Shown here in pieces: positions 14,309 through 52,770 of a stretch of 64,000 nucleotides of DNA. The stretch spans positions 67,180,884 through 67,244,883 of the forward strand of contig CM034547.1 in the NCBI GenBank assembly GCA_020055645.1. Direction: 5' to 3'. Positions within the stretch are counted from its first letter, which is position 1. Every line of letters begins with the position of its first letter. The notes beneath the pieces were generated by a model. That model saw nothing but the letters and a program-made list of their open reading frames with translations. It did not search any database and had not been told where the DNA came from. The stretch is from Tomocerus qinae (lineage: Eukaryota > Arthropoda > Collembola > Entomobryomorpha > Tomoceridae). The translations under genes were made by a program, and so were the position numbers.

Positions 14309-16589
14309 ATGGCTACAAATATTTTTAAAATAAATAGTTCCAAATGGATATTTTCACTGAATCGCCTGTCAAATAAGCTGAGTGCACAGCGAATACGAAC
14401 AATAAGAACAGAAGCAAATGTTGTTTCGAGTGAAGAAAGAATTGCCAGCAGTGCTGAGGGTGTAACACTTCCGGAACTACTTTGGTCTAATCTTCACAGA
14501 TGGGAAAATGACAAGGCATTTGTGAGCAGATACATAAAAATTTCCTTAGATATTTTTTAAATCAATGTATAAGTACATTAATAAATATTTCGACCTTTGT
14601 AGGAATGTGGTGTCTCGGGTAGAATGTATACACATGGAGATGTCTACAGGAAAAGTAAGAGTTTCGCAACTGCACTTTTACAATCTGGATTGAAAAGGAA
14701 CGATGTCGTAGGAATTGTCTTGCCGAATATGGTCGAGTTTCCAATTGTGTATGTGGGCATTTGGGATGCAGGATTAATTGCATCTCCTGCAAATCCAAAC
14801 TACGTTACAGGTTTTATAATTATCTTCCAGTTTGAGATGAAGAGAACTAAATGAGAATTTCTGTAGCAGTCTTTTTCTCTGAATGTGTAGGTGAAATTGC
14901 CAAACAAATGCATTCCTGTGAAGCCAAAGCTGTAGTGACAGTCCCTGAAATGGTCGAATCGGTTAAGGAAGCTCAGAAATCATGTCCAAAGTTGAGATCG
15001 ATAATTGTGATTGGAGATCCTCCACCGGACTGTCACTCTTTTTATGAAATGGTTAAAGTGAGTTCGTTAGGGACGGAATTTTTGAAGGGATCGCAGATAA
15101 CAAATGAGGATGTTGCCCTGTTACCATACTCAAGTGGCACGACTGGTCCTCCCAAAGGCGTCATGCTAACCCACAAAAATATTGGCACTAACCAACTGCA
15201 ATTATCTTCTCCGGATTTTCACAACGTAAACATTAACGAGGGAGGCGACACCCAAGACAGACTTATAGGAGTGCTTCCATTTTTCCATAGTTATGCATTT
15301 AATGTTTTATTGGCTTCAACTTTGTATCAAGGACATTTTGTATACGTCATGCCCAAATTTACCCCACAGGTTTTCGTTAAAGCATTACGAGATCATAAGG
15401 TTCGACGACACATTTGGGATAATTCACTTATCATTTCCAATTTTTGTTATTCATTTATTGATTAATTATTGATAACGTTTTTTCCTTCCTGAAAATTATA
15501 TTATTGATGATTCACTCAATATTAGCCAACTTCGATGCACCTCGTTCCTCCTTTGGTTAACTTTATGACCCAAAGTCCTGATATCGGAATGATGGAAACG
15601 AAAGATTTGAGAGCAGTATTGGCCAGTAAATCAAATATTTGTGTAAATTTTAATTATCTATCTACTACAGTTGGATGCTGCTATTTTTTCATGGTTTCTC
15701 TACAGGCGCTGCTCCTGTTGGTCTAACTTTGAGAAACAATTTTTTGGAAAAATTTGGTTCGCACATATTTTTCCAGGAGGGATATGGAATGACAGAATTG
15801 TCCCCATGCAGTCACTTGGTACGAAGATCAATCAAAAATAGTAAACCATCATCCTGTGGTAATGTCATACCAGAAGCATTTTGTAAGATTGTGAGCCTTG
15901 ATAACGGGGAGACTCTTGGTCCTAATGAAGAAGGCGAACTGTGTGTGAAAGGCCCGCATGTAATTTTTAAGTCGAGAAGTTGTAGCTTGTAGCGCATTAA
16001 TTTTTTTCAGTAGGTAATTGAAACCTTACACCGGATTAATCCAAAATATTGTATTAAATAGGTGATGAAAGGTTATTATAGAAATGAGAAGGCGACAAAG
16101 GAAACAATAGACCCTGAAGGATGGCTCCACACGGGCGATATCGCTTATTACGACAAAGACGAATGTTTTTACATTGTCGATCGACTGAAAGAACTCATAA
16201 AAGTCAAAGGACTTCAGGTACCTAATGCCCATTCATTATAATGGATAATAAGATGTCTGGAATACAAGGGGATTTTCTATTAATTTTTTCAATTTTAGGT
16301 GGCCCCGGCTGAATTGGAAGATATTCTCCGCAAGTTTCCTGGAGTAGCCGATGTGGCTGTTATTGGAATTCCTGATGATCGGGCAGGAGAAGCCCCAAGA
16401 GCCTACATTGTTAAAAAAGACAATCAATTCGTTTCAGAAGCAGAAATCCATGAGTATGTAAACAAACAAGTTTCAGATCATAAACGTCTTAAAGGTGGAG
16501 TTGAATTTGTGGATACCATCCCCAAAGCGGTTAGCGGGAAAATCTTGCGAAGGGAACTCAAAGCCAACTATATCAAGCAGAACTGTTGA
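14309..16589 (+). CDS. Acyl-CoA synthetase, 4CL-like (class A, copy A1)
   Basis: This AMP-forming acid:CoA ligase of the ANL superfamily activates a carboxylic acid through an acyl-adenylate; the substrate is unknown. Seven exons (14309-14521, 14603-14810, 14891-15399, 15526-15625, 15706-15959, 16062-16217, 16299-16589) join to 576 aa. Visible motifs are the P-loop [10 protein letters not shown] (about 221-230), active-site His in LPFFHSY (273), YGMTE (370-374), HTGD (451-454), [11 protein letters not shown] (468-478) and the catalytic Lys of SGKILRR (561). The first 34 residues have no acidic residue and are rich in Ser, Asn, Lys and Arg, like a mitochondrial presequence. The C-terminus (KQNC) is not a PTS1 signal. 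Intron 4 splits a codon that is Gly in most paralogues but Ser here. AATAAA lies at 16658. The ATG at 14309 aligns with the start of A2. Confidence 0.92.
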
Positions 16590-16877
16590 TGGACATGTTC
16601 ATATTTCAGCTTAACTCATATTTATGTATGTTTGTGTTTTGAAAATCTTTTTTGTCAATAAAATCTACGATTATGATTTATTCTTCCACTAAGTTATCTG
16701 ATGAAATACAAACGATGCGCCATTGATAACCTCATTTATTTTTAAAGCTGATTCCTAGTGCCATACGGTAAATTACTCATCCAAATTATAAGTTTGTGAT
16801 TGTAAGTGAAATGCAAAATATCCATCGCTTGTATACTCGCTGGCACTTTTCGTGTTCACCACACTGTTCATGACATA

Positions 16878-17561
16878 CAGGGTCGTCACGTTACTATTCC
16901 CCCCACCACCACAGTACAACACAGACTAGATATCAAAATGGTCTATACACCATCTTGTAGAAAATATTTTTGTTAATCTAATCGACTCCAACACCATGTA
17001 AATCCGTTAGGAAAAACATGGTAAAAAGTTTTTGAAAATAAACAGTTGAAAATTTTAAAAAGTTCTGCTTGCTTTCCAACTCTCCGAATTTCCCCAGGTC
17101 CCTAAAAATTGTGGAATATTGTTTCCAGAATGATTTTTAGAATTGCATTAGTCATTCTTTCATCAATTTTCACCAAAATCGGAGGTGGTAGATTTCCTAA
17201 CTTTTTGTGGATTACTCCAATTTTGACAAAATCTCGAAGAAGTTAGAAAATCAACCACCTCCGATTTTGGTGAAAATTGGTGAAAAAAATCACTAATACG
17301 TTTCTAAAAATTATTATTCTGGAAACAATGTTCCCAAATAATATTTTTGGGGACCTTTTAAAATTCGGAAATTTGGAAAACGGACAGAATTTGTTATAAA
17401 ATTTTTGATTTTCATTATTAGTTACCCGGCTTTTCCTAACCGATTTGCATGGTGTTGGAGTCGATTAGATTCACAAAAATATTTTCTACAGGATGGTATA
17501 TAGACCAATTTGATATATAGTCTGTTTCGAGCTGTGGGGAATTGTATAAGCGATGACCCTG
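16878..17561. mobile_element. Tc1/mariner-like MITE (684 bp, long inverted repeats)
   Basis: The two ends are long imperfect inverted repeats starting CAGGGTCGTCAC on the left and CAGGGTCATCGC on the reverse of the right. A TA dinucleotide flanks each side. The arms continue inward: the GGTCTATA(C/T)ACCAT and CTAATCGACTCCAACACCATG segments occur in both, and the central part (about 17085-17360) also pairs. There is no transposase frame. The TA duplication and CAGGGT terminus are typical of Tc1/mariner, so I call it a non-autonomous relative. It sits just downstream of ligase A1. Confidence 0.8.
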
Positions 17562-17571
17562 TACATAACAA

Positions 17572-17814
17572 GCACGTATGCAGGACTGAGTTTCGGAGGG
17601 GGCTAGATTTCCAATAGATATTTTAAGTATATATATTCGCGCGTAGCGCGAAAATTTTTGGCATTTTTTGAAGGAAATGAGTAAAAAATAGCCTAAAAAT
17701 GGCAAATAATCGCGCGGAGCGCGAAATGTTTTGTTATTTTGAGAAAAAAATCCCTTTTTCTTGGATTTCGGGGGGGGCTTCAGCCCGTAAAGCCCATCCC
17801 TAAATACGTCCTTG
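17572..17814. repeat. Small repeat with GC-rich palindromic patches
   Basis: The ends are loosely inverted (CACGTATGCAGG on the left; the reverse of the right end reads GGACGTATTTAGGG). The inside holds two similar islands, CGCGCGTAGCGCGAAA and CGCGCGGAGCGCGAAA, in AT-rich sequence. It also has a poly-G run beside GGCTTCAGCCCGTAAAGCCC. This looks like a short interspersed element. I cannot assign a family. Confidence 0.4.
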
Positions 17815-18239
17815 GTACATAATATGTTTATTATTGTTTTTATTGATTCCGAATATCGAATTGGTCATCTAGTAAAAAAGAAGATTGTGATGTGACTACT
17901 TTAAATGTTCTTACGCTTATCTCATATTAAACCAATCCAAAAATCAAATATTCAATCAATCTCAATTTTAACCAAAGAATCTGCTACTCCATCCAGATAG
18001 TAGTGTCGTATTGGGTTGAAATCCCTATCACATATCCACGTTAACTAAGTAATTAAGTAATTATATGTATTATCTAATCAACTATATGCAGCTTGTAGCT
18101 AAAGAAAATCAAGAAAGAGTTTAATAATCTTATGCTGACATAAAATGCCTAGGAAAAGTGTCTTAATACATATAATTCAACATATTATAAAAGTGATAGA
18201 CTATAATGAAAAATATGACGTCCAAAAGATTTTCATTCA

Positions 18240-18660: not shown

Positions 18661-18846
18661 TCAAAAGAAATTTGTAGAAATCGGTCAAGGTATGCAAAAA
18701 GCTGAGTGTATCTATTTATTGCATTTTCAAAAACCAATATTTTTAATCAAAACTTTACCCAATTTAAATCAATAAAACCTACGTAAAAGTATACTTGAGT
18801 CAACAAGTTGTTACAAGGTAGGTTAGGTCCGTTAAAAACCAAAATA

Positions 18847-20818
18847 TTTGTCTAATCTTCACAGATGGGAAAATGACAAGGCATTTGTAAACAGCTATAA
18901 ACATAAGAGCTGCCCTGAATACGTTTATAGTTGTTTATGAAATCAGTTTGTGTAGTACATATAATATCACTAGAAATAGGCCCGTTCTCCGAACGGGAAA
19001 AATGGGTAACCCCTTAATGGGGACGGTAGATCATGAGTATGCATTATGCATTAAAAAAGTATGAAAATTAACAGATTAAAATGTTCAAAACATTGCTTGC
19101 TGCATTGCTACAACATCATACGGACGGGGAACCAAATACAATACTTATCGAATCAACATAATAATAGTGAACCAAAGTCAACATCATATCATTTAACTAA
19201 ACAGCGAAATTAAAGTAAATGTTTGAAGTCCTTTCATCAGCGCCTGATTTTTATTATATCATTAATATTATATGGACACAATATGTAATTTTAAATCCCC
19301 CCGTCAATTTACATCACCCCGCGTCATTTTACATTACCACATCATTGTAAATAGACGTAATTTTAAATAACCCCATCATTGTAAATAGACGTCATTTCAA
19401 ATAACCCTGTCATTTAAAATAGACATCATTGCAAATGACCCCGCCATTTATTTTAAATAGACGTCATGGTAAATGACCCCGTGATTTTAAATAGACGTCA
19501 TTTAAATCACCCCGTCATTTTAAATAGAAGTCATTGTAAATGACTCCACATTTTAAATGGTCATTTTAAATAACCCTGTCGTTTTAAATAATTTTGTCGT
19601 TTAGAATCACCCTTCATTTTGAATAACCCGATTGTTTTAAATCTATAAACGTCATTTTAAAATATCTTGTCATTTAAAATAACCTCGTTATTTTAAACAT
19701 TCCTGTCATTTTAAATAATCTCTTTATTTTAAATATTCCTGTAACCGTAAATGTCCAAGTCTTTTTCACATCATCATTTTGAGTAGCTCGTTTTGTAATT
19801 AGCTACCACTATTTTAATCGTCCTCGTTATTTCTATCTATTTTCTATCTACCCCGTCACATTTATTGACCAATCCTATGTCAAGTCAAGTCATAGCATAT
19901 TCAATCCAAAACCAATCCATTCTAACTATATAAACGTTGTATTGCCATTAATAGTTTGACTCCGCTGCGGTAGCCCCGTTCGAGGTGAAAGGGACACTAA
20001 TCTCTTTACATGGCGGAGGCCTGTCTGCTTAAAGAGTAGGACTTTGTCAAATTTTCGAAATTCACTGGCAAAATATTTTCTACTAAAAAATAAAAAACTG
20101 GAGTCGCTACCGTCTTCTTTATTAAGTCGAGTAGGTCAGGAAAAAGTTTGGTAAAGATCGGATGAAAACTGTAGGAGGAGTATCTGGACAAAACGTGACA
20201 GATCGGAGCGTTTTCTCCCACTCCTTCAATGTTAAAATTCGAAATTCAAAAAATCATAAAACGATTCCTATGAAACATATCGTTTTGAAACTCAAGGTTT
20301 GGGGTTCTGACTATGATGTGCCCATCCAGTAAAAATTTGAAAGTCGTAAGTTGATGTTAAAGGACATTTGTGCAGCTATTATTATATAGATAAGTATTGT
20401 ATTATTCCACGTGTGTGTATAGAAATGTGGTGTCTCAGGTAGAATGTATACACATGGAGATGTCTACAGGAAAAGCAAAAGTTTCGCAAATCCACGAGAA
20501 TTTTCTATTCCATTTTTTCAATTTTAGGTTGCTCCAGCTGAATTGGAAGATATTCTCCGCAAGTTTCCTGGAGTAGCCGATGTGGCTGTTATTGGAATTC
20601 CTGATGATCGGACAGGAGAAGCCCCAAGAGCGTACATTGTTAAAAAAGACAATCAATCCGTTTCAGAAGCAGAAATCCATGAATATGTAAACAAACAAGT
20701 TTCAGATCACAAACGTCTTAAAGGTGGAGTTGAATTTGTGGATATCTTTTCCAAAGCGGCTAGCGGGAAAATCTTGCGAAGGGAACTCAAAGCCATTTAC
20801 ATCAAGCTGAACTGTTAA
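18847..20818 (+). pseudogene. Deleted ligase pseudogene (between A1 and A2)
   Basis: Three pieces of a class A ligase lie in order. A 3' fragment of exon 1 (about 18847-18893, coding [12 protein letters not shown]) is followed by the start of exon 2 (20423 to about 20488, [21 protein letters not shown]). That runs directly into intron 6 sequence and a full-length exon 7 (20528-20818). The junction near 20488-20492 removes the rest of exon 2 and all of exons 3-6, including P-loop and active-site His. Exon 7 is still open and close to that of A1/A2, but has FSK where others have IPK just before the catalytic SGK. A repeat element fills the exon 1/exon 2 gap. The exon 1 start codon is also missing. 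It is not expected to make an enzyme. Confidence 0.9.
18970..20392. mobile_element. Unclassified repeat element inside the ligase pseudogene
   Basis: The left end has a palindrome, CCCGTTCTCCGAACGGG. A degenerate array follows at about 19300-19780, built on ATTTTAAAT alternating with CCCCGTC and AGACGTCAT units. A more complex tail (about 19950-20380) follows and ends in TATTATTATATAGATA. There is no coding frame for a transposase or reverse transcriptase. The simple-repeat tail hints at a non-LTR or Helitron-related non-autonomous element, but I cannot decide. It lies in what was intron 1 of the pseudogene. Confidence 0.5.
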
Positions 20819-22361: not shown

Positions 22362-24601
22362 ATGGCAATCAATATTTTTAGAAGAAATGGCTATAGATGG
22401 ACTTTTTCACTAAAACGCGTATCGAATAAGCTGAGTGCACATCGAATACGAACGCTAAGGACAGAAGCAAATGTTATTTCAAGCGAAGGAAGAATTGCCA
22501 GCGTAGATGGTGTAACACTTCCGGAACTACTTTGGTCTAATCTTCACAGATGGGAAAATGACAAGGCTTTTGTAAGCAGATATTATAACATTAAGAAACG
22601 CCTTTTTTAAATATGCTTATAAACTATTTGCGAATAAATAAAGAGATGGTTTTTTGACATTTGTAGGAATGTGGTGTCTCGGGTAGAACGTATACACATG
22701 GAGATGTCTACAGGAAAAGTAAGAGTTTCGCAACTGCACTTTTACAATCTGGATTGAAAAGGAACGACGTCGTAGGAATTGTCTTACCAAATATGGTCGA
22801 GTTTCCAATTGTGTATGTGGGCATTTGGGATGCAGGATTAATTGCATCTCCTGCAAATCCAAACTACATTACAGGTTTTATAATTATCTTCCAGTTTGCG
22901 ATAAAGACAACTAAACGAGTAGATTTCTGAGCAGTCTTTTTCTCTGAATGTGTAGGTGAAATTGCCAATCAAATGCATTCCTGTGAAGCCAAAGCTGTAG
23001 TGACAGTCCCTGAAATGGTCGAATCGGTTAAGGAAGCTCAGAAATCATGTCCAAAGTTGAGATCGATAATTGTGATTGGAGATCCTCCGCCGGACTGTCA
23101 CTCTTTTTATGAAATGGTTAAAGTGAGTTCGGTAGGGACTGAATTTTTGAAGGGATCGCAGATAACAAATGAGGATGTTGCCCTGTTACCATACTCAAGT
23201 GGCACAACTGGTCCTCCCAAAGGCGTGATGCTAACCCACAAAAATATTGGCGCTAACCAACTTCAATTATCTTCTCCGGATTTCCACAACGTCAACATGA
23301 ATGAGGGAGGCGACACGCAAGACAGACTTATAGGAATACTTCCATTTTTCCATAGTTTTGCTCTTTGTGCCTTAGTGGGTTCAACTTTGCTACAAGGACA
23401 TTTTGTATATGTTATGCCCAAATTCACCCCACAGGAATTTGTCAAAGCATTGCAAGTTCACAAGGTTCATTGAGAAAATGATTTTCGACTATTTAGATAT
23501 TCGTTCATAAAATTATTTATTTTTGTTGGTAATCATTTACGATGGACTCATTTATATTGACAGCCAACCTCGATGCATCTCGTTCCTCCTTTGGTTAATT
23601 TTATGACCCAAAATCCGGATATTGGAATAGAGAATACGAAACATTTGAGAGCAGTTATGGCTGGTATTATTTTATTGTGAACCTTTCATCATTTGTACTA
23701 TGTACTTTTCTATTCATAAAGCATTTTTTCCAGGCGCTGCTCCTATTGGTCTTACATTAAGAAACGGTTTTTTGGAAAAATTTGGTTCGCACATATTTTT
23801 CCAGGAGGCATATGGGATGACAGAACTATCTCCGGCCAGTCACATGGTCAGAAGATCAATCAAAAATAATAAACCATTATCCTGTGGTAGTGTCGTACCG
23901 GAAACTTTATGTAAAATTGTGAATATTGACAACGGGAAAACCCTTGGTCCTAATGAAAATGGCGAAATTTGTGTGAAAGGACCTCAAGTAATTTTAAACT
24001 TGGATCATTATAACTTTTTGGTTGGAACCCTCGAATTACATATAGCAAAGAACTAAGCCCCAATCTTTTCGGTAGATGATGAAAGGTTATTTTAAGAACG
24101 AAAAAGCAACAAAAGAGACCATAGACCCTGAAGGATGGCTCCACACGGGCGATATAGGATATTACGACAAAGATGAATGCTTTTACATCGTTGATCGACT
24201 GAAGGAACTCATAAAAGTCAAAGGGTTTCAGGTATTAAAAATACCTTGTGGCTGTATTGGATAATAAGATGGCTGGAATCCACGAGAATTTTCTATTTTT
24301 CCAATTTTAGGTGGCCCCAGCTGAATTGGAAGATATTCTCCGCAAGTTTCCTGGAGTAGCCGATGTGGCTGTTATTGGAATTCCTGATGATCGGGCAGGA
24401 GAAGCCCCACGAGCGTATATCGTTAAAAAAGAAAATCAATCTTTTACAGAAACAGAAATCCAAGAATATGTAAACAAAAAAGTTTCAGATCATAAGCGTC
24501 TTAAAGGTGGAGTTGAATTTGTGGATATCATCCCCAAAGCGGCTAGCGGAAAAATCTTGCGAAGGGAACTCAAAGCCAATTACATCAAACAGAACTGCTA
24601 A
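22362..24601 (+). CDS. Acyl-CoA synthetase, 4CL-like (class A, copy A2)
   Basis: Seven exons (22362-22571, 22667-22874, 22956-23464, 23564-23663, 23734-23987, 24076-24231, 24311-24601) give 575 aa with the complete ANL motif set, including [10 protein letters not shown] and SGKILRR. Exon 2, intron 2 and most of exon 3 are almost identical to A1. Just after the active-site His the sequences part: A2 has [18 protein letters not shown] where A1 has [18 protein letters not shown]. This region lines the acyl pocket in ANL enzymes. Introns 3-5 are divergent from A1, so the similarity is patchy. Exon 6 opens with Met-Met where most copies have Val-Met. The N-terminus is basic and free of acidic residues to about residue 33; the C-terminus is KQNC. 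A polyadenylation signal lies at 24709. Confidence 0.92.
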
Positions 24602-25272: not shown

Positions 25273-27109
25273 ATGGATCTCACCGAATTTGACCGTTTAT
25301 TGTTCAGTCCAGAGCCAGAATACCCGTCAGACTTTTCTTTTGATAACTTATTGGCAACAGATCCGATCGGCGATTGTCAAGGGCCTAGTCTATGTGCTGA
25401 TAGAACTGAAAATCGGGTAAGCATGCACCTCTAAAGTTTATTATTCTAATTGCAAGGCTAATAATTAAAGTAAAGAATGCGCTAGAGATTGAATTTGGTA
25501 CCAAACCATGAATATCAATAATTTTTTAATCAAAATTTTTAATGTTATTTTAGAACTGTGATGTTCTGTCAAATACCTGTTGGCTGTCAAATGATTTTGT
25601 CCCTTTTCCACGCCCATCCACTTCGTTGGGTATGAACAGTCCTCTCACTGGCCTTCCAAATTGCAATTCAAAAGAATTTGTACCAAAAGAAGTTCCAAAA
25701 GAGGACATATCGATGACGCCGGGGGATACTACTGCAGACTGCCAATTATGGTCCAACAACCGATTGAACTTGGATCTGTGGAGTAGAAATTCAAATAAAA
25801 TCCTTCGAAAGACTAGCTGGTCTAAGACTCCGTCTTCTCCTTATCTTAAGATCTACCGAAAAACTTTAGTCTTGGTCGACTTCAAAACTCATCGGATACC
25901 AACTTCCGGCATAAGAATCGCCATTTGGGATCCAGATAAAAATGACGTACCTTTTGATATTACGAAGGAACTATTTTCTCACCGCTACATTCTCTCGTTC
26001 CATGCTCCCATGACTGGATATTACACTGTAGAGATGCGTCATAGATTTCTGAATTACCACTTCAGGGGAAGTCCTTTCACCATCCCTGTCATCCGAAAAT
26101 ACAAGATGCATTCTTCCGGGACAAAACTCTATCGATTCTATTACCAATTCAACCAAACCAAAGCTGGGGGAATTGCTTACAGTACTTTGGTGAAAAGAGT
26201 AAGAACTATTTTCTCTATTCCGTATTTTATTTTGTTTATAATTTCTCTCGTTAAAGTTATTTGCTATTTCCAGATCTATGTGACTGACCAGAATTCGCAC
26301 CAAGTTATTGTGTACCGTGAAAATGGAATCGTTGAGAAATGTTTCGGGAGGATGGGCTGTAACCCGAAAGAATTAAATGAACCGACTGGAATTGCTATAG
26401 ACAATTACAATTATCATATCGTCGTCAGCGACAAGAAAAACCATCGCATTTGCATCTACAATTTAAACGGGGATTTCCTCTTCAATTTTGGCAAACGAGG
26501 ATCCAATTGTGGAGAATTTAAATACCCAAACGGTGTCTCCGTGTCTCCAAAGGATGGCACTATCGCTGTCGCCGATTCTGGTAATCACGGTATTCAGCTT
26601 TTTGACTGCCACGGAAACTTTCTCAAGAAATACAGTGTAAAGGAGTCAAGACCTGATGATTATCAATCCGAATTTGCCTGCCCTCAAGGTGTATCTTTTG
26701 ACAAATCTGGTAAGGCATCATCATAGTCGTCAATCGTCATCTATATTTATATGAATTTGGAAAGTTGTCATTTTCCATTCTTTGTTTTACAGGAGAAAAT
26801 ATTTATGTCAGCGATATCCGCGTTAAAGCTCTCTTTAAATTTGACATTGGACTGAAAGCAAGGAAGAACATGATACCAACCGGAGTTAGCTTCTACCGAC
26901 CCCAGGGAATTGCAGTCGATTCAGTTGACAACATTCTCTTATGCGACTCCAGGAACAACTGCATTCTAGTTCTCAATTCAAACGGAGAGCACATTTCATC
27001 AATTGTTGGAAATACCTTTAACTCTTTTTACCATCCTCAAGATCTCGTTGTAGTTCCCTCAGGAAAAATTATCATCATCGATTTCTATTCCAGAATTTGG
27101 GTCGTGTAA
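25273..27109 (+). CDS. Filamin-domain/NHL-repeat protein, TRIM-NHL-like without RING or B-box
   Basis: Four exons (25273-25416, 25554-26198, 26274-26709, 26793-27109) give 513 aa. Residues 1-140 are low-complexity, with Asp/Glu/Ser/Pro-rich parts. A filamin/ABP280-type domain spans about 145-228 (ending in GYYTVEMRHRFL and GSPFTIPV). About six NHL repeats then fill 264-513, for example IYVTDQNSHQVIVY, IVVSDKKNHRICIYN and IAVADSGNHGIQLFD. This filamin-NHL order is that of TRIM71/LIN-41/Wech and TRIM2/3, whose NHL propeller binds RNA or protein. The RING, B-boxes and coiled coil of those proteins are absent, so it should not be a ubiquitin ligase. The 75-base intron 2 (26199-26273) is in frame and stop-free. 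The gene interrupts the ligase array on the same strand. Confidence 0.85.
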
Positions 27110-32948: not shown

Positions 32949-35248
32949 ATGGCTAGTAATATTTTTAAAAGTATACCGTATTTAAAACGGTTCTCAACGG
33001 CATTCAAGTTATCTAATTATCGTCTGGAAAATGCTTCGAGTGTTAGCACACAGAAAATACGAACACTTAGAACAAAGGCAAATATTATTTCGAGTGAGGA
33101 ACAAATCCCCAGCGTTGATGGTGTAACTCTTCCAGAATTACTGTGGTCAAATCTTCATAAATGGGAGAATGATAAAGCATTTGTAAGATATGAATATTCT
33201 ATGTAGCTATACAATGTTATATTTATTAAGCATAAGGGAAAAAATAAATATTTTTGTGTATTTTTATTATAATCTTAGGATTGTGCATTCACAGGTAGGA
33301 CATATACACATGGAGAAGTCTATAGGAAAAGCAGAAGTTTTTCTACAGCACTTTTGCAATCAGGATTAAAAAGGAACGATGTTGTTGGAATCGTTTTGCC
33401 GAATGTACCTGAATTTCCTATGGTGTATGTGGGAATATGGGATGCGGGATTAATTGCATCTCCTGCCAATCCAGCCTATTTACCAGGTTAAGAACATTGA
33501 TATTGATAATTGATATTGATAGTAATTAATTAATTAATTTTGTTTATTACCAAATTAGGAGAAATTGCCAAGCAAATGAAATTATGTGAAGCCAAAACTA
33601 TTGTAACAACATCTGAGATGGCTGAATCAGTTAAAGAAGCTCAAAAATCCTGTCCTAAGCTGAAATCAATAATTGTGATTGGAGAGCCCCAACCAGATTG
33701 TCATTCATTTTTCGAAATGGCAAAAGTTAACTCAACTGGAACAGAATTTTTGAAAGGTTCACAATTAACTGACGATAATGTGGCTTTATTACCGTTCTCA
33801 AGTGGGACGACAGGACCCCCAAAGGGAGTAATGCTCACCCATAAAAATATTGGAATAAATCTTCTCCAATTCACTCTTCCGGATTTTCATAACGTTAATT
33901 TTAATGAGGGTGGCGATTCCCAAGAAAGGTTAATAGCAATTCTTCCATTTTTCCATATTTATGGATTTAATGTTGTATTAGCTTCAACCCTATACCAAGG
34001 ACATTTCACATCCTGCCTCCCAAAATTTGACCCACAGGGTTTTGTTAAACTCTTAAAACAACATCGGGTAAGACAAATCATTAACTATGTTAATACAAAA
34101 TTATAAACATTTTACAAGTAAACATCCATATAGCAAGAAAAAGAATAATTTACTAATTAATACAATTAATTTTGCAGCCTACTTCCTTGCATCTTGTTCC
34201 TCCTTTGATTGCTTTCATGACCCATAGCCCAGATGTGACTAAGAAAGAAACGGAGCATGTGAAAGCTATTTTGGCTGGTAACCTGACTTTTATATTATTT
34301 TAATGGTAGCAATTAGTACAATCTCATTAGAGCTTCTAAATTATTTAACTACCTGTAATATAGGGGCTGCTCCTTGTGGTCTCGGGTTGATACAGAACAT
34401 GTTGGGAAAATTTGGTACTCAGATATTTTTCCAGGAAGGTTATGGAATGACTGAAATGTCCCCAGTTAGTCACATGGTGAGAAGGTCATCAAACAACAAC
34501 AAATGGGGATCCTGTGGAAGTATTTTACCTGCATCTGAATGTAAAATTGCTGATGTTGACTCTGGAAAGGCCCTCGGGCCTAATGAAAGAGGCGAAGTTT
34601 GTGTTAAGGGTCCACAGGTAAAATTTCGTTAGGTTTATACTTATTACCAATGTCCTTTTAATATTTACAACAATTTCATCATGGATTAACATTGATGTTT
34701 AAATTATTAGGTGATGAAAGGCTATCTTAATAACGAAAAGGCAACAAATGAGACCATAGACTCTGAAGGATGGATTCACACGGGTGACATCGGTTATTAC
34801 GACCAAGATGAATGTTTTTACGTAGTTGATCGTCTAAAAGAACTAATAAAAGTGAAAGGGTTGCAGGTAAATAATTTTCTGTAAATGCTGTTGTGAGAAT
34901 TAGAATTCAAGTTAAACTACTATTTTCTTCATTTTGTTTTCTACTATTTAATTGTAGGTTGCTCCTGCTGAATTAGAAGACCTACTCCGAAAACATCCTT
35001 CAGTGGCCGATGTAGCTGTCATTGGAATTCCTGATGAGCGTGCAGGAGAATCTCCAAGAGCGTATATCGTCATAAAGGGAAATCAGTCAGTTTCGGCGAC
35101 AGACATCCAGGAATACATAGACAAACAAGTTGCAGATCACAAACGTCTTAGAGGAGGAATTGAGTTTATAAATATCATTCCTAAAGCGGCTAGCGGGAAA
35201 ATCTTGCGAAGGGAGTTGAAAGCAGATTATCTCAAGCGACAGAGTTAA
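32949..35248 (+). CDS. Acyl-CoA synthetase, 4CL-like (class A, copy A4)
   Basis: Seven exons (32949-33182, 33279-33486, 33559-34067, 34178-34277, 34364-34617, 34711-34866, 34958-35248) give 583 aa. All ANL motifs are intact: [44 protein letters not shown] and SGKILRR. The N-terminus [16 protein letters not shown] has no acidic residue until about residue 30 and resembles A1, so it looks like a mitochondrial presequence. The C-terminus is KRQS. It is closest to A5 in exons 1-6 and closer to A1/A2 in exon 7. The ATG at 32949 is chosen because MA(S/T)NIFK aligns with A1. Confidence 0.92.
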
Positions 35249-35893: not shown

Positions 35894-38727
35894 ATGCTTA
35901 AGAGCACTTGCAGCTTGAAGAGACTCATCTTGATATTCGATTTTTCTGTAAATTATCGATTAGCAAATACTGCATTGTCACAGAAAGTCAGAACACTTAG
36001 ATCAGCTGCCAATATCGTTTCATGTAAAGAAATAATTAAAAGTATTGACGGTGTTACAATTCCTGAATTACTCTGGTCGAATCTCCATAAATGGGAAAAT
36101 GATAAAGCATTTGTAAGACAGTAATACAAATAAAACAGCAGGGGACATCAGTTCAATACTGCATTGTGTAATATCATCAATTCTAGGTAGCTGTTTACAG
36201 TGTACAAGTGTTTGTATATTTTTATACTCGCAGGATTGTATATTAACAGGTAGAACATACAAACATGGAGAAGTCTATAGAAAAAGCAGAAGTTTTTCTA
36301 CTGCGTTACTTCAATTAGGATTGAAAAGAAATGATGTTGTTGGAATCGTGATACCGAATTTACCCGAGTTTGCTATAGTTTTATCTGGAATCTGGGATGC
36401 GGGATTAATTGCATCTCCTTCCAATCCAGTCTATCTGCCAAGTTAGGAAATCATAAAATGGAAGATATTTTGCATGCATACAGTAAGTTTGCTTGTTAAT
36501 CTACTGATTTTTTAACAATCAATAGGTGAAATTGCCAATCAGATGTTAATTTGTGAAGCCAAAGCAGTAGTTACATTTTCGGAAATAGTAGCATCAGTTA
36601 AAGAAGCCAAAAAGTCTTGCCCCAAGTGGAAATCAATAATTGTCATCGGAGAGGCTCAGGCAGATTGTCACACTTTTTATGAAATGATCAAAGTTGACTC
36701 GACTGGGACAGAATTTTTGAAAGGGTCACAAATAACAAATGATGACGTGGCTTTGTTACCTTTCTCAAGTGGTACGGCTGGTCCTCCGAAGGCAGTGATG
36801 CTAACCCACAAAAATATTGGCACCAATCTCCTTCAATATTCTTTCCCCGATTTTCATAACGTCAATGTCAATGAGGGTGGTGATTCCCAAGAAAGGTTGA
36901 TAGGGGTTCTTCCATTTTTCCACATTTACGGACTTAGCGTAATATTATCTACGACATTGTATCAAGGGCATTTTACAGCTTGTCTTCCCAAATTTGACCC
37001 ACAGAATTTTATAAATCTTTTACGAAGACACAAGGTGATTTAAAATATGGAAATAATTTCTATAATATAATCTACTAAAATTTGAACTTTTTACCATTAA
37101 AAGTACAAATAAAATATTTTGCAGCCCACTTCTTTGCATCTTGTTCCCCCTTTGATTAATTTGATGATTCATATACCCAATATTGGAAGGAAGGAAACTG
37201 CATTTGTAAAAACAATAATGGCTGGTAATAAGATTTTTATCCATATCCAAAAAATGGTGATTAAATTCAAATTGATTTGACTTTGTTTTGAAGGCGCTGC
37301 TCCTGTTGGTCTTTCGATAATTCAAAACCTTTTGGAAAAGTTCGGGGGTAGCTTATTTTTTCAGGAGGGATATGGAATGACGGAGATGTCCCCGGTTAGT
37401 CATATGATCCGAAAATCGACAGGCAATAAAAAATTGTCGTCTTGTGGCAGCATTGTCCCCGGCTCTCTTTGTAAAATTATTAATGTTGACACCGGGAAGA
37501 ATCTTGGCCCAGATGAAAAGGGAGAAGTTTGTGTAAAAGGACCGCAGGTAACATATCCTAAATTGTATAAATTATTTTAAATGCTAGTTAAGTTATAACT
37601 TAGTTTAATTCGATTATTAGGTGATGAAAGGCTATTTTAATGACGATGAAGCAACAAAGCAGACCATAGACTCCGAAGGCTGGCTTCGAACAGGTGATGT
37701 AGGTTATTACGACCAAGATGAATGCTTTTACATTGTTGATCGACTGAAAGAATTGATAAAAGTCAAAGGTTTACAGGTAAATCAAGCAAACTTATTGCAT
37801 GTTGGGTGGTTCTAATATAGTAATAGGCGAGTGTTCGGCCTCATATAACTTTTGAACGGCTGGATCGATTTTAACTAAATATAGTTCATTTTAAAGACAA
37901 ACGCATTGTGAGTGAACTGTTATATATAAGGAGATGCATACCAAATATCAGTATCAATGTCCAAAGTCAGGGAGAAAATATTTTTGGAAAAAGTGCAATT
38001 TAAACGATTTCTTCTTACTTTGAGCATTAATAACTTATCGGCTGGAACCTTAATATAAACAAGATGCACATCATTTGAAAGAAGATGAAATACCTAGTGT
38101 TTACTCAAAGTAGTATCCGTATGGTAGGAGTATTACAGGACCAAAGTTTAGAGAGATCACAAAAAAAGGAATTCAAAGGAATTACTTATCCTTAGATTTC
38201 AATTTATCCCTAATTGATCAATCGCGACAAGCTTTTTAAATAACAAATCTAATAATAACGTAACGTTTGTCTTTAAAATGATCTATATCTTGTTAAAATC
38301 GATCCAGCCGTTCAAAAGTTATTTGAGGTCAAATACTATTATATTAGGACCACCTTGTATTTCATACGTTTATGCTGGATTCAGTAATGAAGAATGTTAT
38401 TCTTTCCTTCTGGTTTAGGTTGCTCCTGCAGAACTAGAAGATATTCTTCGAAAACATCCCTTAGTGGCCGATGTGGCTATCATTGGAGTGCCGGATAAGA
38501 TGATGGGAGAAGTCCCAAGGGCTTACATCGTTAAGGCTGCAAAGCAAGGTGTATCGGAAGCCGAACTAAAAGATTACATTAGTAAGAGAACTGCTGAACA
38601 TAAACATCTTAAAGGAGGAATCGAGTTTGTGAAATCCATTCCTAAAGCACCCAGTGGGAAGATTTTGCGAAGGAAGCTCAAAGAAGCTTATGACAAGGGG
38701 GAAAAGTTCTACGGAGACTACAAATAA
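35894..38727 (+). CDS. Acyl-CoA synthetase, 4CL-like, with altered P-loop (class A, copy A5)
   Basis: Seven exons (35894-36112, 36234-36441, 36526-37034, 37125-37224, 37294-37547, 37621-37776, 38419-38727) give 584 aa. The frame is intact, but the nucleotide-binding P-loop reads [11 protein letters not shown] where all paralogues have SSGTTG(P/L)PKGV. Thr to Ala and Gly to Ala at two normally invariant positions may weaken or change ATP binding. HTGD is RTGD here. [24 protein letters not shown] and SGKILRR remain. Exon 7 is the most divergent among class A and is longer at its end (GEKFYGDYK). Intron 6 is enlarged by a 550-bp inverted-repeat element. The N-terminus [15 protein letters not shown] is basic and hydrophobic. 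It may be a specialised or failing enzyme. Confidence 0.88.
37805..38354. mobile_element. Inverted-repeat MITE in intron 6 of ligase A5
   Basis: The ends are inverted repeats beginning GGTGGTTCTAATATAGTAAT (left) and GGTGGTCCTAATATAATAGT (reverse of right). They extend for over 100 bases through AACTTTTGAACGGCTGGATC to CATTTTAAAGACAAACG. There is no coding frame. A TTG flanks each side and may be a 3-base target duplication, but this is uncertain. The family is not assigned. Confidence 0.8.
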
Positions 38728-40357: not shown

Positions 40358-42945
40358 ATGGCACGTGTTCCTCAAAAAAAGCTAATCGGGCAAGCTTTAT
40401 TCCAGCAAGGAAAGAATCCCTTCTACAAAGGTTTTATAAAAACCCCAGCGAGTAGCAAAATATCGATTAGACACTATACTCCCAAATGGGACATTTCAAA
40501 AGATGACAAGTTCTCCGTAGTTTCATCTTTACATGATGTAGATACTATTGTGGGTGTGACTATCCCAGAATTCTTGGCAAGCAGACTACCCAAATATGAA
40601 AATTCAGACGCATTCGTAAGTATTGAGCATTAAAAATTTTATCTACAGTCTATCTGATTAGAATTGTAATAAAAATAATTTTTTAGAAATGTGCCTTGAC
40701 CGGTAGGAAGTATACACATGGACAGATTTACAAAGCCAGTAGAAGTTTTGCTACAGCTCTTCTGCAATCCGGTCTGAAACGCCAAGATGTTGTTGCAATA
40801 GCATTGCCGAATGTTCCTGAATTTCCTATTACAGTTTTGGGAATCTGGGAAGCTGGACTGATTTCATCTCCAATAAATCCCACTTACACTTCTGGTCTGT
40901 TTCAAATAATTATCTTAAGAGGGGTTAATAGCGGTGTAACTCGAGCATACACTTTGTGTGTATTACTTAGGATTAGAGTATAGCTCGTATTTATTTACTA
41001 AAATTCTTCAAAATTTCCAAAAAGTGGCGGAAGGTAACCTCGGACTTGTGGCTCCGAAATACTAAAAAAATGTAACACATTGTGAATTATAGCGTTATCG
41101 GGAAAACATGATTTCCCGCCAACGCTATAATTCAAAACTAATTCGAAATTTCATCCTGAGCATTAAGTTAGAGATATTCACCTTTCGACACTTTTTGGAA
41201 ATTTTGAAGAATTTCAGTATATAAATATGGGTTATTCTAATCCTGAGTAATACACATAAAGTGTATGTTCAAGTTGCCCCACTATTAACCACCCTTAAAT
41301 TCTAAAACACAAACCCACTATACTATAAAATAATTAATCATGAATGTGTTTTTCAATGTATAGATGAATATGCAAAGCAGTTTCAAAATTGTGAGGCTAA
41401 GGCCATTGTCACCATCCCACAATTTCTTCCTGCGATCCGAGGGGCACAAAAAGAATGTCCGAATCTAAAGTCAGTAATAGTTGTCGGAGAACCTCAGGCA
41501 GGTTGTCATTCGTTTTTCGAAATGATTAAGGTGGACCCCAGCAGTTCAGAATTCCTCAAAGGATCCCAAATAGACACGACGGAAGTAGTTGCACACATTC
41601 CTTACTCCAGCGGAACGACGGGTCTTCCAAAAGGGGTTATGTTGACCCATTCAAATATCATGACGAATTTGACACAGTTTCTGCATGATTCTGTTCGTCT
41701 CTCTACTTTCAACGACGGTGGCAACGGTCAAGAAAGACTTTTAGGACTGCTCCCCTTTTTTCATGCTTATGGTTGTGTTGTGATTATGGGCGGAGCTTTG
41801 TATCAAGGAGCCTCCGTTGCTTGCCTTCCAAAATTTGAAGTTGAAACTTTCGTCAAGACTATCAGAGAGCACAAGGTAGCGAAAATTAATGGATTGTAAA
41901 TATTTTTGTGTAGAAGCTGTAAATTAGGTTACAATTTTCAGCATTTTTTGATTTGATTAATCTAAGATTTCAGTAAAAATTTGCAGCCTACCATCGTGCA
42001 CCTTGTGACTCCCTTAATTTCCTTTTTGGTAAACAGTCCGGAAATTGGAGCTAAAGAAATGGAGCAAATTAAAGGGATCACCGGTGGCGGAGCTCCAATT
42101 GGCTCATTCTTGATTAACAAACTTTTTGAGAAAGCTGGAAAAACGTTTTTCTTCCAAGAAGGCTTTGGCATGACAGAAACAACTGCATGCACCCATGCCC
42201 TCACAAAAGAATTCAGAAACAAGAAGATCGGTTCTTGTGGTACTGTAGCTCCAGGGACACTTGCCAAAATTATTAATACGGATACAGGAGAAGCTCTTGG
42301 TCCCAACGAAAACGGAGAATTGTGTATCAAAGGACCACAGGTGAATGGTTTTCTTCTTTGTGATTACAGGTGTATATTAAGTACATTTAAATTACTGAAT
42401 AATTAACTATACAGATAATGAAAGGGTATTGGAGAAACGAAAAAGCCACTAGGGAGACTATCGACGAAAACCAATGGCTTCATACGGGAGATATCGGTTA
42501 TTACGATAATGACAATTGTTTCTACATAGTCGATCGTCTCAAAGAATTGATCAAAGTAAAAGGACTTCAGGTAATTGCAAATATAAATTTCGTACTCTAA
42601 TTTCCAATAAAGAAATGCCATTCTAGCAATTATCCTCTCGTATAATTTTAATATTAGGTAGCACCTTCGGAGCTAGAAGATATTCTGAGAAAACACCCGG
42701 GAGTGGTTGATGTAGCGGTCATTGGAATCCCGGATGAGAAATGGGGAGAGCTGCCAAGAGCCTACATTGTTAAACGTGATAACAGTCTGCAGGAAGACGA
42801 CCTTCACGATTTCATCAGTCCTAAAGTCTCAACTCACAAAAAACTCAAAGGAGGCATTCAATTCATTGACGCCATTCCTAAGGCTCTCAGTGGGAAAATT
42901 CTTCGCAAAGACTTGAAACAAAATTTTCTGAAAAATGGGATTTAA
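40358..42945 (+). CDS. Acyl-CoA synthetase, 4CL-like (class B, copy B1)
   Basis: Six exons (40358-40615, 40687-40894, 41364-41875, 41987-42340, 42415-42570, 42658-42945) give 591 aa. The fourth exon (354 bases) equals exons 4 and 5 of class A joined (100 + 254), so class B lacks that intron. Exon 3 is one codon longer than in class A. Motifs are intact: [50 protein letters not shown]. The P-loop has Leu-Pro-Lys as in plant 4CL and luciferase, where class A has Pro-Pro-Lys. The N-terminal 44 residues are Lys/Arg/Gln/Ser-rich with no acidic residue ([18 protein letters not shown]), resembling a mitochondrial presequence. The C-terminus LKNGI is not a PTS1. Intron 2 carries a TTAA-flanked MITE. 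Confidence 0.92.
40919..41294. mobile_element. piggyBac-like MITE in intron 2 of ligase B1
   Basis: This 376-bp element is flanked by TTAA on both sides (40915-40918 and 41295-41298). Its long inverted repeats start GAGGGGTTAATAGCGG (left) and GGGTGGTTAATAGTGG (reverse of right), and include GAATTTT-rich arms of over 100 bases. A central hairpin is built on TATAGCGTT(A/G) around 41095-41145. Intron 2 of B2 has the same flanks with a single TTAA and no insert, which confirms the duplication. There is no transposase. Confidence 0.88.
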
Positions 42946-45369: not shown

Positions 45370-45383
45370 CATGGAGGCGTCTT

Positions 45384-45487
45384 ACCTAACCTAACCTAAC
45401 CCTAACCTAATTACTATTATACCTAATATAACATAACCTAACCTAACCTAATTACTATTATACCTAATATAACACAACCTAACATAA
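45384..45487. repeat. Interstitial (CCTAA)n telomere-like tract
   Basis: Several CCTAA units occur in two blocks separated by a repeated ATTACTATTATACCTAATAT spacer. CCTAA is the complement of the arthropod telomere unit TTAGG. Shorter tracts occur near 24830 and 62390. They are too short to be a telomere. Confidence 0.7.
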
Positions 45488-48429: not shown

Positions 48430-50393
48430 TTTTTCTGTATTAATCAGCCGGAGCCATTCAAGCCAATTCAAACTTACAGTAGTAAACATTAAGTTAACTG
48501 TAAGCTACCCCTTAATGGGTATACTATTTTTTCCGTTCTTTGCACGTTTCATATAAATACTTTAATATCTCTTCGTATAAAGAATGCTAATTGGTCACAA
48601 TATTATATTATTAAAATTCAAACTCATTAGGCACTACAATTAAAACAAGCAAATGACTAACTGAGGGAATGTATTCAAAAGTAATGGCTGGTTGAGGGGA
48701 AAATGGAGCATGTAATATACATGTATAAGTAATAATATAAGTAAGAGTGTTTGGTTTAATATATATGGAATGTTTACGAATTTACTTTCAATTCATACGA
48801 AAAAGGTCAACAACACCAACAACACTATCCTAACTCGACACTACTGACTATGAGGTCACCGGGCTGTAGTGTCTCTCAGTCACTGACTGATTTCGGTGAT
48901 TTTGGAAAAGCAAATAAACTGGTATACCAATTTCGGTGAATTGATTCACACCTCTGAAAAATCCGGAATTTCTCCGAATGTGAAATTCCAGATTTTGCTA
49001 CTTCCGTCTACGTTCGATTGGTCATATCCATACTAGTTTCGGACGACATTTATTTTGTAGTTTATATTCAAGGTGTATATCTGTCTTTTCACAGACAGAT
49101 AGACATCATGTTAAGTACAACGAACTTGGCCTACCCTAATAGAAAGTATCTATGCTAAATGAACTCATGTTATGAAACACGTGCATATTCATTAATCTCG
49201 TAATCCATATCTGATTAGCTTTCCGTGTATTAATGCCCATTGTGAATATAGTTACATCGTTACTCATTACTCGTATCTTGAGGTACTATTATGCTACTGA
49301 ATACAGAATATCACGTATCAATAAAACAATTCGTCACCAAGAAAGTTGTTTTCATTTTTATTTTGTCTCATTCTTACATACAAATATATTAACTAGTTTC
49401 GCCAGCAGTACAACTAAATGTAAAATCTACTGAGAAAAGTTTTTTAGCATGAATAACCCGTTTTCAACTTTGTTTAGTCCCAAATTTTTTGTGATTCTCA
49501 TTGCCATTCGGATGAAACCAAAGCTAGTAGAATTATATCTGGTCAATAATTAATATAGGTACTGTCTACAATACAAAGAATCGACATGTAGAGGTGATAA
49601 AGAATTACGATTCAGTAATTTGATATTAAATATTTAATCAACTGAATTATTTGATGCGTTTCAAAGGTACCTCCAATTTTATTGCTTGCGTTATTTGTTA
49701 CTTGAATCGTTTCCACCTCTATTAATTGATATCGTGTTGTGCTAGGTCAATTAATGAGCTTTAGGGCAAAAAGTTGCTAATACCTAATTATCAGCAACTT
49801 TGCCTAATGATTATCATGCATGCATTAAAGTGGTACCTTTGTACTGGCTTCACAGTGTAACGAAGTATTGGCATATTATTACCACTTACAACGTTACAAC
49901 GTGTGATAAATGGTTTCTATAAATTACATACCTCTATGCCAATAGCTATCTTCAGGAAAATGGTAGCATTGTGGCATGGCATGACAGTGTTTCAGGCTAC
50001 TGGTAAATGTCTTTTCTGTAAGCTTTGTCCAATACGCCTATAATCTATTTAATTAATTGTCATAATTTGCTTGTTAATCTTTTGGCACATGAACTAATTC
50101 CGTTTGTTGTACATCCGTAGTATAAAAGAAGCATGGGAGTTTATTTTTCTTTGAACCAGTGTATAGTGTAAAAATGACAATTGTATAGTGGTAATATTAT
50201 TGTATCTCTGTAATTGCAATGACGTCATGGGAAAATTAAAACAATGAGTTTAAGAATCTAACTTTCTTCAGTTGAGTCTTGAGTCTCTGAGAAGTAGTGC
50301 ATCTTGTACACATCTTGTTGGATGGATTTGCTGAGGGGTGCATATTGTAATTCACTAACCTACCACAACAAATAAAGAGTTGTTGCTTTTACA
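48430..50393. other. Intergenic region between ligases B2 and B3
   Basis: No gene or clear repeat is recognised. It holds the B2 3' flank. The last 60 bases before the B3 start (AATAAAGAGTTGTTGCTTTT) match those before B2 (AATAAAAGAGTTGTTGCTGT), so the proximal 5' UTR was duplicated with the gene. Confidence 0.45.
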
Positions 50394-52770
50394 ATGGCAC
50401 TCATTCCACGAAGGCAGTTATTTCGAAAAATATTCCATAAAATAAGCTTAGATAGCGTTTCATTTCGGCACTATTCCCACATGAGAGTTACAAACGTTTC
50501 AAGAAATGAAAATTTCTCCGTAGTGTCGTCTCAACATCACGTAGACCCCGTTGTGGGAGTTACCATTCCAGAATTCTTGGCGGACAGACTACCGAAATAT
50601 GAAAATTCAGATGCATTCGTAAGTTAAAAATTACTCTTTCAGTTGTCAATTTATTGCATTCAAAATTGGCCAATGACAATATAATTTTCAGAAATGTGCC
50701 TTGACCGGAAGAAAGTATACACACGGCCAGATTTATAAAGCCAGCAGAAGTTTTGCTACTGCTCTTCTGCAATCCGGTCTGAAACGTCAAGATATTGTTG
50801 CAATAGCATTGCCGAATATTCCTGAATGCCCTATAACTTATCTGGGGATCTGGGAGGCTGGACTGATTTCATCTCCAATAAATCCCACTTGTACTTCAGG
50901 TCTGCCTCAAACTAAAGTTTTAATATGTCATATTGGAAATTTTTTTAAAAAATTAACAGAATATTTACATAGGTATATACCCTATAATAACATGTATTGT
51001 CCACCTAGATGAGTACATTAGGCAACTTCAAAATTGTGAGGCTAAAGCGATTGTCACCATCCCACAATTTCTTCCTGCGATCCGAGAGGCACAAAAAGAA
51101 TGTCCGAATTTAAAGTCAATAATAGTCGTCGGAGAACCTCAGGCAGGTTGTCATTCGTTTTTCGAAATGATCAAAATGGACTCCAGCAGTTCAGAATTTC
51201 TCAAAGGATCCCAAATAGACACGACGGAAGTAGTTGCACACATTCCTTACTCCAGTGGAACTACGGGTCTTCCAAAAGGAGTTATGTTGACCCACTCAAA
51301 TTACGCTACGAGCATCTTGCAAAGCTCTCATCAGTCCATCAACATCTCTAATTTTAATGAAGATGGAAACACACAAGAAAGGCTCTTGGGATTGCTTCCG
51401 TTTTTTCATGCATTTGGTGCAGCTAAAATTATGGGAAATAATTTGTATCATGGATCAACAGTTTCCTGTCTTCCTAAATTTGAAGTTGAAACATTTATCA
51501 AAACCATCAGGGAACATAAAGTATGTAATTAAATCACAAATTACACATCTGCGTTCATCTTGTATGTAAATGTCTTAAAATTCCAAATGCAAATCTAAGT
51601 TTTAAATTACTATATATGCAGCTCACGATTTTAACTTTGGTACCACCGTTGATATCCTTCATCGTAAATTGTCCTGAAATTGGAGCAAAGGAATTGAAAC
51701 ACATCAAAGGAATTAATTTTGGTGCGGCTCCAACAGGTCCAACGTTAATCAATAAGCTTTCAGAGAAAATTGGCAAGCCCATTATTATTCAAGAATTATT
51801 TGGCATGACTGAAACATCATCAGCTGTTTTTGCAACGCCTAAAGAATTTGGACACAGGAAATTGGGTTCATGTGGTTCGGTGGTTCCAGGAACTTTTGCC
51901 AAAATTATCAACAATGCTGGAGTAGCTTTAGGTCCAAATGAAACTGGAGAGTTATGCGTAAAAGGACCACAGGTTAATTAGCTCCTCCAGTAATAGTAGT
52001 AATCACACCTTTTTCGCATTTTCACATGTTATACACACAGTTTATAATATGAAGTTACAAGGAGAACTCGATACTTTTCATTATATAACGTTTGTACATA
52101 TTTTGAACACCACAATGACCTATATTACATTTTTTTTACAATTTACTTGTTTAGAAGATTTTATTATTAAATTGTTAATGTTATTTTTCATGCACACAAG
52201 CACAGCCATTATGTTACTAATCGGATGTAATTAATTACAGGTAATGAAGGGTTATTGGCGAAACGAAAAAGCGACAAGGGAGACTATCGATGAAGACCGT
52301 TGGCTTCATACGGGGGATATCTGCTATTACGATAATGATAATTATTTCTACGTAGTCGATCGCCTCAAAGAATTAATTAAAGTAAAAGGGTTGCAGGTAA
52401 TTGCACATAAATTGCGTAAATAAATCTAATCTCCAATAATGATGCCACTCTAGTAATTATCCTCTGTGCATAATCATGTTAGGTAGCGCCTTCGGAGCTA
52501 GAAGATATTCTGAGAAAACACCCGGGAGTGGCTGATGTGGCAGTCATTGGAATCCCGGATGATAAATGGGGAGAGTTGCCAAGAGCCTACATTGTTAAAC
52601 GTGAAATTAGTCTACGGGAAGATGATCTTCACGATTTCATTAATTCTAAAGTCTCAACTCACAAAAAACTCAAAGGAGGCATTCAATTCATTGACGCCAT
52701 TCCAAAAACTGTCAGTGGAAAAATTCTTCGCAAAGACTTAAAACATAATTTTCTAAAAATTGGAATATAA
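50394..52770 (+). CDS. Acyl-CoA synthetase, 4CL-like (class B, copy B3)
   Basis: Six exons (50394-50618, 50692-50899, 51009-51520, 51622-51972, 52241-52396, 52483-52770) give 579 aa. Motifs are [43 protein letters not shown] and SGKILRK. One codon is missing from the loop after AKIIN relative to B1 and B2. Exons 1-2 and intron 1 follow B2, but part of exon 3 follows B1 almost base for base (GEPQAGC, then [15 protein letters not shown], where B2 has GEPQEGC and [15 protein letters not shown]), so it is mosaic. The N-terminus is basic ([16 protein letters not shown]). The C-terminus LKIGI is not a PTS1. The next gene, 0.7 kb downstream on the same strand, is the Tan-like hydrolase. Confidence 0.92.

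Follow-up and report, generated by a model that had tools for sequence, protein, structure and literature searches.

The springtail Tomocerus qinae carries a tandem array of eight intact 4CL-type acyl-CoA ligase genes (here g1 to g8) and one relic, all on the + strand at positions 14309-52770 of a window of 64,000 nucleotides, which is the whole stretch of DNA analysed here (C2:67180884-67244883 of a genome assembly of 334,443,149 bases in 115 contigs). We consider it fairly probable that this is an old array, built up stepwise, and that it represents a panel of probably mitochondrial 4CL-type acid:CoA ligases with differing acyl pockets and putative substrates. As a specific example from an animal, the array shows parts of enzyme genes homogenised by recombination and the block coding for the substrate pocket left divergent in at least two pairs of copies, and it offers eight testable proteins. 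Its features are, in positions of the window:

14309-16589, + strand: g1, ANL acyl-CoA ligase, 7 exons, 576 amino acids
18847-18898, + strand: relic, 3' end of exon 1, ~92% identical to g1/g2
20420-20495, + strand: relic, 5' part of exon 2, 92% identical to g1 and 91% to g2
20489-20818, + strand: relic, intron-6 tail and exon 7, the latter 94% identical to g1 and 92% to g2
22362-24601, + strand: g2, ANL acyl-CoA ligase, 7 exons, 575 amino acids
28071-30310, + strand: g3, ANL acyl-CoA ligase, 7 exons, 579 amino acids, pocket 8/12 as plant 4CL
32949-35248, + strand: g4, ANL acyl-CoA ligase, 7 exons, 583 amino acids, pocket 9/12 as plant 4CL
35894-38727, + strand: g5, ANL acyl-CoA ligase, 7 exons, 584 amino acids, ATP loop altered, pocket 9/12 as plant 4CL
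40358-42945, + strand: g6, ANL acyl-CoA ligase, 6 exons (4 and 5 joined), 591 amino acids
46241-48429, + strand: g7, ANL acyl-CoA ligase, 6 exons, 580 amino acids
50394-52770, + strand: g8, ANL acyl-CoA ligase, 6 exons, 579 amino acids

Gene models and family membership

Exon-by-exon comparison together with splice-site modelling gave proteins of 575-591 amino acids without internal stops for all eight genes. The genes g1-g5 consist of seven exons with the junction phases 0,1,0,1,0,0; in g6-g8 exons 4 and 5 are fused, and the intron positions are otherwise conserved with the other copies. The relic between g1 and g2 is made up of three fragments with 87-94% identity to g1/g2, and exons 3-6 were not found in it when all eight proteins were used in tblastn. 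At E <= 0.01, the same eight proteins revealed no ANL fragment in the window outside the eight genes and the relic, and in flanking pieces reaching to 4.9 kb on the left and 4.6 kb on the right of the window the best tblastn match had an E value of only 0.039. A genome search with g4, in which 75 of 169 candidates were scored, returned the array and scattered relatives with at least 105 matches, the closest other match on C2 outside the array lying at 62.74 Mb.

By their sequence, g1-g8 are members of the ANL superfamily with a predicted activity as AMP-forming acyl-CoA ligases. Each copy matches the Pfam domains AMP-binding (PF00501) and AMP-binding_C (PF13193), and each retains the FFH histidine, the catalytic lysine of the lid domain and the TGD and DRxK motifs. 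The ATP loop, for which we used the consensus (T/S)SG(S/T)TGxPKG, is canonical in seven copies; the exception is g5, where a T and a G are both replaced by A. Copy g7 reads GEILGMTE where g1, g3, g4 and g5 read QEGYGMTE.

A preliminary description of this DNA had reported eight intact genes and a relic on one strand, and our models agree with it to the base at the outer coordinates. It had also called the genes 4CL-like, which is confirmed by plant 4CLs being the nearest solved structures, followed by luciferases and CG6178, and it had credited every copy with the full ANL catalytic set, which applies to seven copies and not to g5 with its deviating ATP loop. The description had named alleles or assembly duplicates as the finding that would overturn an expansion. 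We checked this and rejected it, since even the most similar pair shares only 88% protein identity and many introns, in the seven pairs compared, align like unrelated introns.

Mosaic history of the close copies

The similarity between close copies changes from block to block. Between g1 and g2, exon 2 is 98%, intron 2 88%, intron 6 77% and the last exon 92% identical, and introns 3, 4 and 5 reach 48, 47 and 45%. As a baseline, non-homologous introns aligned likewise give 51 +/- 6% with a maximum of 67% (n = 120 pairs). The near-identity of g1 and g2 gives way to divergence directly after the FFH motif, and the diverged segment, from intron 3 to intron 6, includes the pocket-coding block. The same block is included in the diverged segment of g6 and g7, which runs from exon 3 to exon 5: here the fourth exon is 67% and intron 4 is 43% identical, and exon 2 (93%), the last intron (84%) and the last exon (96%) are much more alike. 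For g6 and g8 the corresponding values are 86% for the last intron, 91% for the last exon and 67% for the fourth exon, and g7 and g8 share intron 1 (93%) and exon 2 (97%), the remaining introns being 58-64% identical.

MaxChi, applied to fourfold sites and intron columns of six pairs, supports this pattern: for g1-g2, g6-g7, g6-g8 and g7-g8 the observed value was not attained in any of 200 permutations, for g4-g5 it was attained in one of 200, and g1-g4 gave p = 0.085. When the nearest copy was determined by block, g1 and g2 were mutually nearest in all four blocks; g7 was nearest to g8 in three, and in the last block its protein identity was 92% to g6 vs 91% to g8. Coding constraint alone was considered as the cause of the mosaic and ruled out, because the introns take part in it. 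The mosaic is best read as the trace of older duplications followed by conversion of certain blocks, which would be the simplest account of the alignments.

Divergence of the acyl pocket

We take 12 positions, known from work on At4CL2 and mapped onto Pt4CL1 (3a9u), to represent the acyl pocket. The Pt4CL1 positions 236, 240, 303, 306 and 331 are supported as pocket positions in PMC5239791, 236 and 331 by way of a numbering offset. Compared with the whole core, the 12 positions are enriched for differences in all eight copies (p = 0.014), in the group g6-g8 (p < 0.0001), in g1-g2 (p = 0.0007) and in g7-g8 (p = 0.0009), and show no enrichment in g1-g5 (p = 0.51). Since the pocket sits in a generally more variable region, we also used a local background (Pt 225-345; eight tests, p uncorrected). 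The excess then persists in the group g6-g8 (p = 0.0012), the pair g6-g8 (p = 0.002), g1-g2 (p = 0.011), g7-g8 (p = 0.014) and g6-g7 (p = 0.029), and with the five literature-supported positions it is found in the group g6-g8 (p = 0.015), in g1-g2 (p = 0.046) and in g7-g8 (p = 0.006). The excess in g7-g8 consists of replacements and not of silent changes (columns 360-419: dN 0.15, dS 0.26), and Pt4CL1 position 240 is V in g6, N in g7 and K in g8.

The pockets also differ in their resemblance to plant 4CL. It is highest in g3 (8 of 12 positions), g4 and g5 (9 each), and lower in g1 (6), g2 (5), g6 (5), g7 (4) and g8 (3); seven scattered relatives elsewhere in the genome agree with plant 4CL at 4-6 positions. 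We infer from these residues that g3-g5 may use aromatic acids and g6-g8 other acids. On this reading, g3-g5 would act on aromatic acids in an animal that lives in soil among plant phenolics.

The preliminary description had further held that the copies differ mainly around the acyl pocket, and it took this to suggest a panel of ligases for different acids. The windows of the pocket region are variable indeed; however, the N-terminal leader differs most among the copies, and a stretch of the lid domain (g1 positions 525-549) differs about as much as the pocket. Divergence of the pocket beyond expectation is supported in g1-g2 and within g6-g8, but neither in g4-g5 nor in g1-g5 taken together. 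Diversifying selection does not by itself account for the contrast in the pocket: part of it stems from the mosaic history, during which other blocks were made alike, and the pairwise ratio of replacement to silent substitution rates (dN/dS) does not exceed 0.20.

Age and origin of the array

Protein identities are 64-88% among g1-g5, 78-87% among g6-g8 and 52-56% between the two sets, and silent sites are saturated in 14 of the 15 pairs between them. Wherever dS is finite, pairwise dN/dS is 0.06-0.20 (N-terminal columns excluded). From the genome search 12 relative loci were taken. Seven of these (L039-L045) were modelled as 4CL-like genes with a home-made spliced aligner, which also recovered all six internal junctions of g5, and their N-termini were hand-read from upstream frames in six cases (all except L041); the five others look more distant and were excluded from the tree. 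Intron-bearing relatives are located on C1, C2, C4 and C5.

In a tree of 18 rows, g6-g8 (100/100) and g1-g5 (91/94) form groups, and on these alignments the array is composed of two old subclades. All eight copies are united in 47% of the 200 bootstrap trees. Among the modelled genes, only the array and L039 (C2:40.98 Mb) have an intron at KGPQ|VMKG, which favours a single origin of the array, and L039 has exons 4 and 5 joined like g6-g8. The array would therefore probably have grown from an L039-like ancestor. The preliminary description had called it a strong lineage-specific expansion; given the age of the two subclades, this is no more than a possibility.

N-terminal leaders

In all eight proteins, 49-65 residues precede the first domain anchor, and the first 30 amino acids have a net charge of +3 to +8 with no more than one acidic residue. 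A C-terminal tripeptide of the peroxisomal targeting signal type 1 (PTS1) occurs in none of the eight, which end in QNC, QNC, RHK, RQS, DYK, NGI, NGI and IGI, nor in any of the seven modelled relatives. The relatives L039, L040 and L042 have leaders resembling those of the array, and L043-L045 have short acidic N-termini. The leaders, assessed by composition, suggest that the enzymes of the array are probably directed to the mitochondria.

Proposed mechanism and alternative explanations

According to the favoured reading, each working copy would convert an acid and ATP to the acyl-AMP and then, with CoA, to the acyl-CoA, which is the standard two-step ANL reaction, and the basic leader would send the enzymes to the mitochondria. 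Recombination among the duplicated copies, either as gene conversion or as unequal crossing over, would subsequently have re-copied certain shared blocks. In g1-g2 and g6-g7 it would have missed the pocket-coding block, which could then drift apart. The outcome would be one catalytic frame with several pockets, those of g3-g5 being near plant hydroxycinnamate ligases and those of g6-g8 clearly different. That the copies differ in their substrates, and that selection is the reason why the pocket escaped re-copying, is our inference.

Several results speak against this reading. With the local background, the 12 positions show no excess in g1-g5 (p = 0.84), in g4-g5 (p = 0.93) or in all eight copies (p = 0.24), and neither do the five literature-supported positions in g1-g5 (p = 0.87) or in all eight (p = 0.64). 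Silent-codon run tests gave p < 0.05 in just three of 13 within-clade pairs (g1-g2, g6-g8 and g7-g8), and in one of 28 pairs when run over all eight copies. The diverged span of g7-g8 covers introns 2-5, but the silent sites of exon 4 (8/47 different) are not more diverged than those of exon 3 (17/60), so this pair shows no spared pocket. Whole-gene dN/dS is near 1 in no pair, which gives no support to positive selection. As to the leader, a strict test (net charge of +4 or more, no acidic residue) is passed by four of the eight proteins and also by 60 of 3927 internal 30-mers.

Some of these results would also suit redundancy or dosage, i.e. copies with one and the same set of substrate acids, such as medium-chain fatty acids, the pocket changes being neutral drift in an unconverted block. 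The pocket block of g1-g2 and g6-g7 diverged at neutral sites as well, and the dN/dS values and the missing pocket excess in g1-g5 and g4-g5 point the same way. However, in g1-g2 and within g6-g8 the positions that line the pocket vary beyond even their local background, and certain changes are radical, such as those at Pt4CL1 position 240, so we regard redundancy as unlikely. It is somewhat more conceivable, if still rather doubtful, that the array is partly decaying and that g5, perhaps also g7, has lost full ligase function. The two replacements in the ATP loop of g5 and the GEILGMTE of g7 would fit this, but both frames are intact with low dN/dS, and the G to A change of the ATP loop is also present in the relative L039, the spliced model of which is open. 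A further alternative concerns the process and would leave the functional reading unchanged: the mosaic may be due to unequal crossing over that created chimeric genes instead of gene conversion. The relic, in which exon 2 is joined to intron 6, illustrates that rearrangement within these genes occurs, and the last block of g7 is slightly closer to g6 although g8 is nearest in the other three. On the other hand, in no block is g1 or g2 nearer to a third copy than to the other, and their diverged middle between two more-alike stretches would require two exchanges. Among the alternatives we give this one the most room, while still thinking it improbable.

The last alternative concerns the gene that follows the array:

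53458-56636, + strand: C45/AAT-family gene for an acyltransferase or hydrolase, intact, 386 amino acids, 7 exons with hand-chosen junctions

This gene starts 687 bp past g8 on the same strand (PF03417 1.1e-30, NF040521 2.7e-47), and by analogy the array might supply acyl-CoA to its product for the formation of an N-acyl amide, as in the fungal pair of phenylacetyl-CoA ligase and penicillin acyltransferase. The AAT model matches at five places in the genome (6/6 candidates scored), so that the adjacency is not automatic. A single neighbour can nevertheless be there by chance, adjacency is the whole basis of the idea, and the arthropod AAT family includes tan-like hydrolases. The DIOX_N domain has 19 matches genome-wide and none of them lies less than 6 Mb from the array, no model specific to isopenicillin N synthase having been used. 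We therefore hold it to be very unlikely that the array feeds this enzyme for an N-acyl amide, although some functional link to the neighbour may exist; a connection to a springtail beta-lactam pathway, which the neighbour had prompted us to consider, was rejected on the same DIOX_N result.

The panel of mitochondrial ligases remains the reading that we prefer. It can be extended to a frame-and-cassette system, in which recombination refreshes the shared catalytic frame and the pocket exons are exempt, as their introns are too diverged to pair, and hence free to specialise. The springtail panel of mitochondrial acid:CoA ligases would then be independent of vertebrate ACSM, and the same collembolan family could have given luminous springtails an ATP-dependent luciferase, in parallel to the origin of firefly luciferase in an array of its own. 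We think that this extended version is quite unlikely to hold in full.

Other features of the window and the genome

Upstream of the array lie an ELO-type elongase (8472-8873 and another exon) and an OAS-like nucleotidyltransferase in a single open frame (12429-13514, - strand; PF10421 3.1e-08). An NHL-repeat gene in two frames (25554-27106, + strand) with a sub-threshold filamin match is located between g2 and g3. The model of the AAT-family gene contains, in its first intron, a degenerate repeat (53608-54014 and 54069-54455, 82%) with SVRPSVRPS-type frames. Further downstream, a direct repeat of 957 bp (57491-58447 and 61270-62226) is 99.7% identical with 3.8 kb between the copies, which reflects either a recent duplication or an assembly issue; its region contains repeated frames on the - strand, two pieces of which were tested and had no Pfam match.

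Elsewhere in the genome, the loci L061 and L064 are single open frames of 345 and 368 amino acids, each with a DIOX_N domain. On C1, near 39.0, 41.0, 41.17, 60.1 and 108.4 Mb (L001, L002, L004-L008), there are frames of 1602-2456 amino acids with paired adenylation domains. These are probably intron-poor genes of nonribosomal peptide synthetases, a class of genes reported from springtails (PMC10531068). Copies or fragments of mitochondrial COI were observed at C1:36670901-36671875 (L051), at C1:139.1-139.8 Mb, on C11 and on C81. L051 is a nuclear mitochondrial insertion with the order ND2, COI, short gap, COII (genes labelled by eye), which we take to be a pancrustacean order with a springtail-like COI.

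Comparison with known systems

The solved structures that match the array best are plant 4CLs (3a9u and 5bsm, E values of 3e-129 or better), and g4 and g5 share nine of the 12 pocket residues with one of them. In contrast, g6-g8 share only three to five, and plant 4CLs are not known to carry a leader of the mitochondrial type. Beetle luciferases are less close in this respect, the array pockets agreeing with them at 2-4 of 12 positions, which is no more than the 3-4 of plant 4CLs themselves. The vertebrate ACSM enzymes are mitochondrial acid:CoA ligases for medium-chain acids and are clustered in mammals. However, ACSM2A (2wd9) reaches 166.7 bits vs 446.8 bits for the best 4CL, so the array is not nearest to ACSM and the likeness between the two would be convergent at best.

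Among arthropods, the firefly PACS/ACS genes are the obvious counterpart. According to PMC6191289, nine of 14 such genes of Aquatica lateralis closely flank Luc1, most members of three clades have seven exons, and PTS1 is present in most members of two. Both systems are tandem acyl-CoA synthetases of the 4CL/luciferase branch in which seven exons are common; they differ in that peroxisomal proteins prevail among the extant members of two firefly clades out of three, whereas the eight springtail proteins all have a basic leader and none has PTS1. In the springtail Lobella sauteri, four homologues of beetle luciferases group with a Folsomia 4CL in one clade, and they keep the AMP-binding sites but not five or six of the seven luciferin residues (PMC12091230). 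The passages on them describe transcripts and mention neither a genomic array nor a leader; the array presented here is a genomic locus behind such collembolan 4CL-like proteins, which that text considers as possible luciferases of the luminous springtail. Within the titles and beginnings of abstracts of the open-licence literature, we found no description of a springtail array of these ligase genes or of gene conversion in one. Tandem synthetases of the 4CL/luciferase branch are already known; what stands out here is the pocket-divergent mosaic in two pairs of copies and the leader in place of PTS1.

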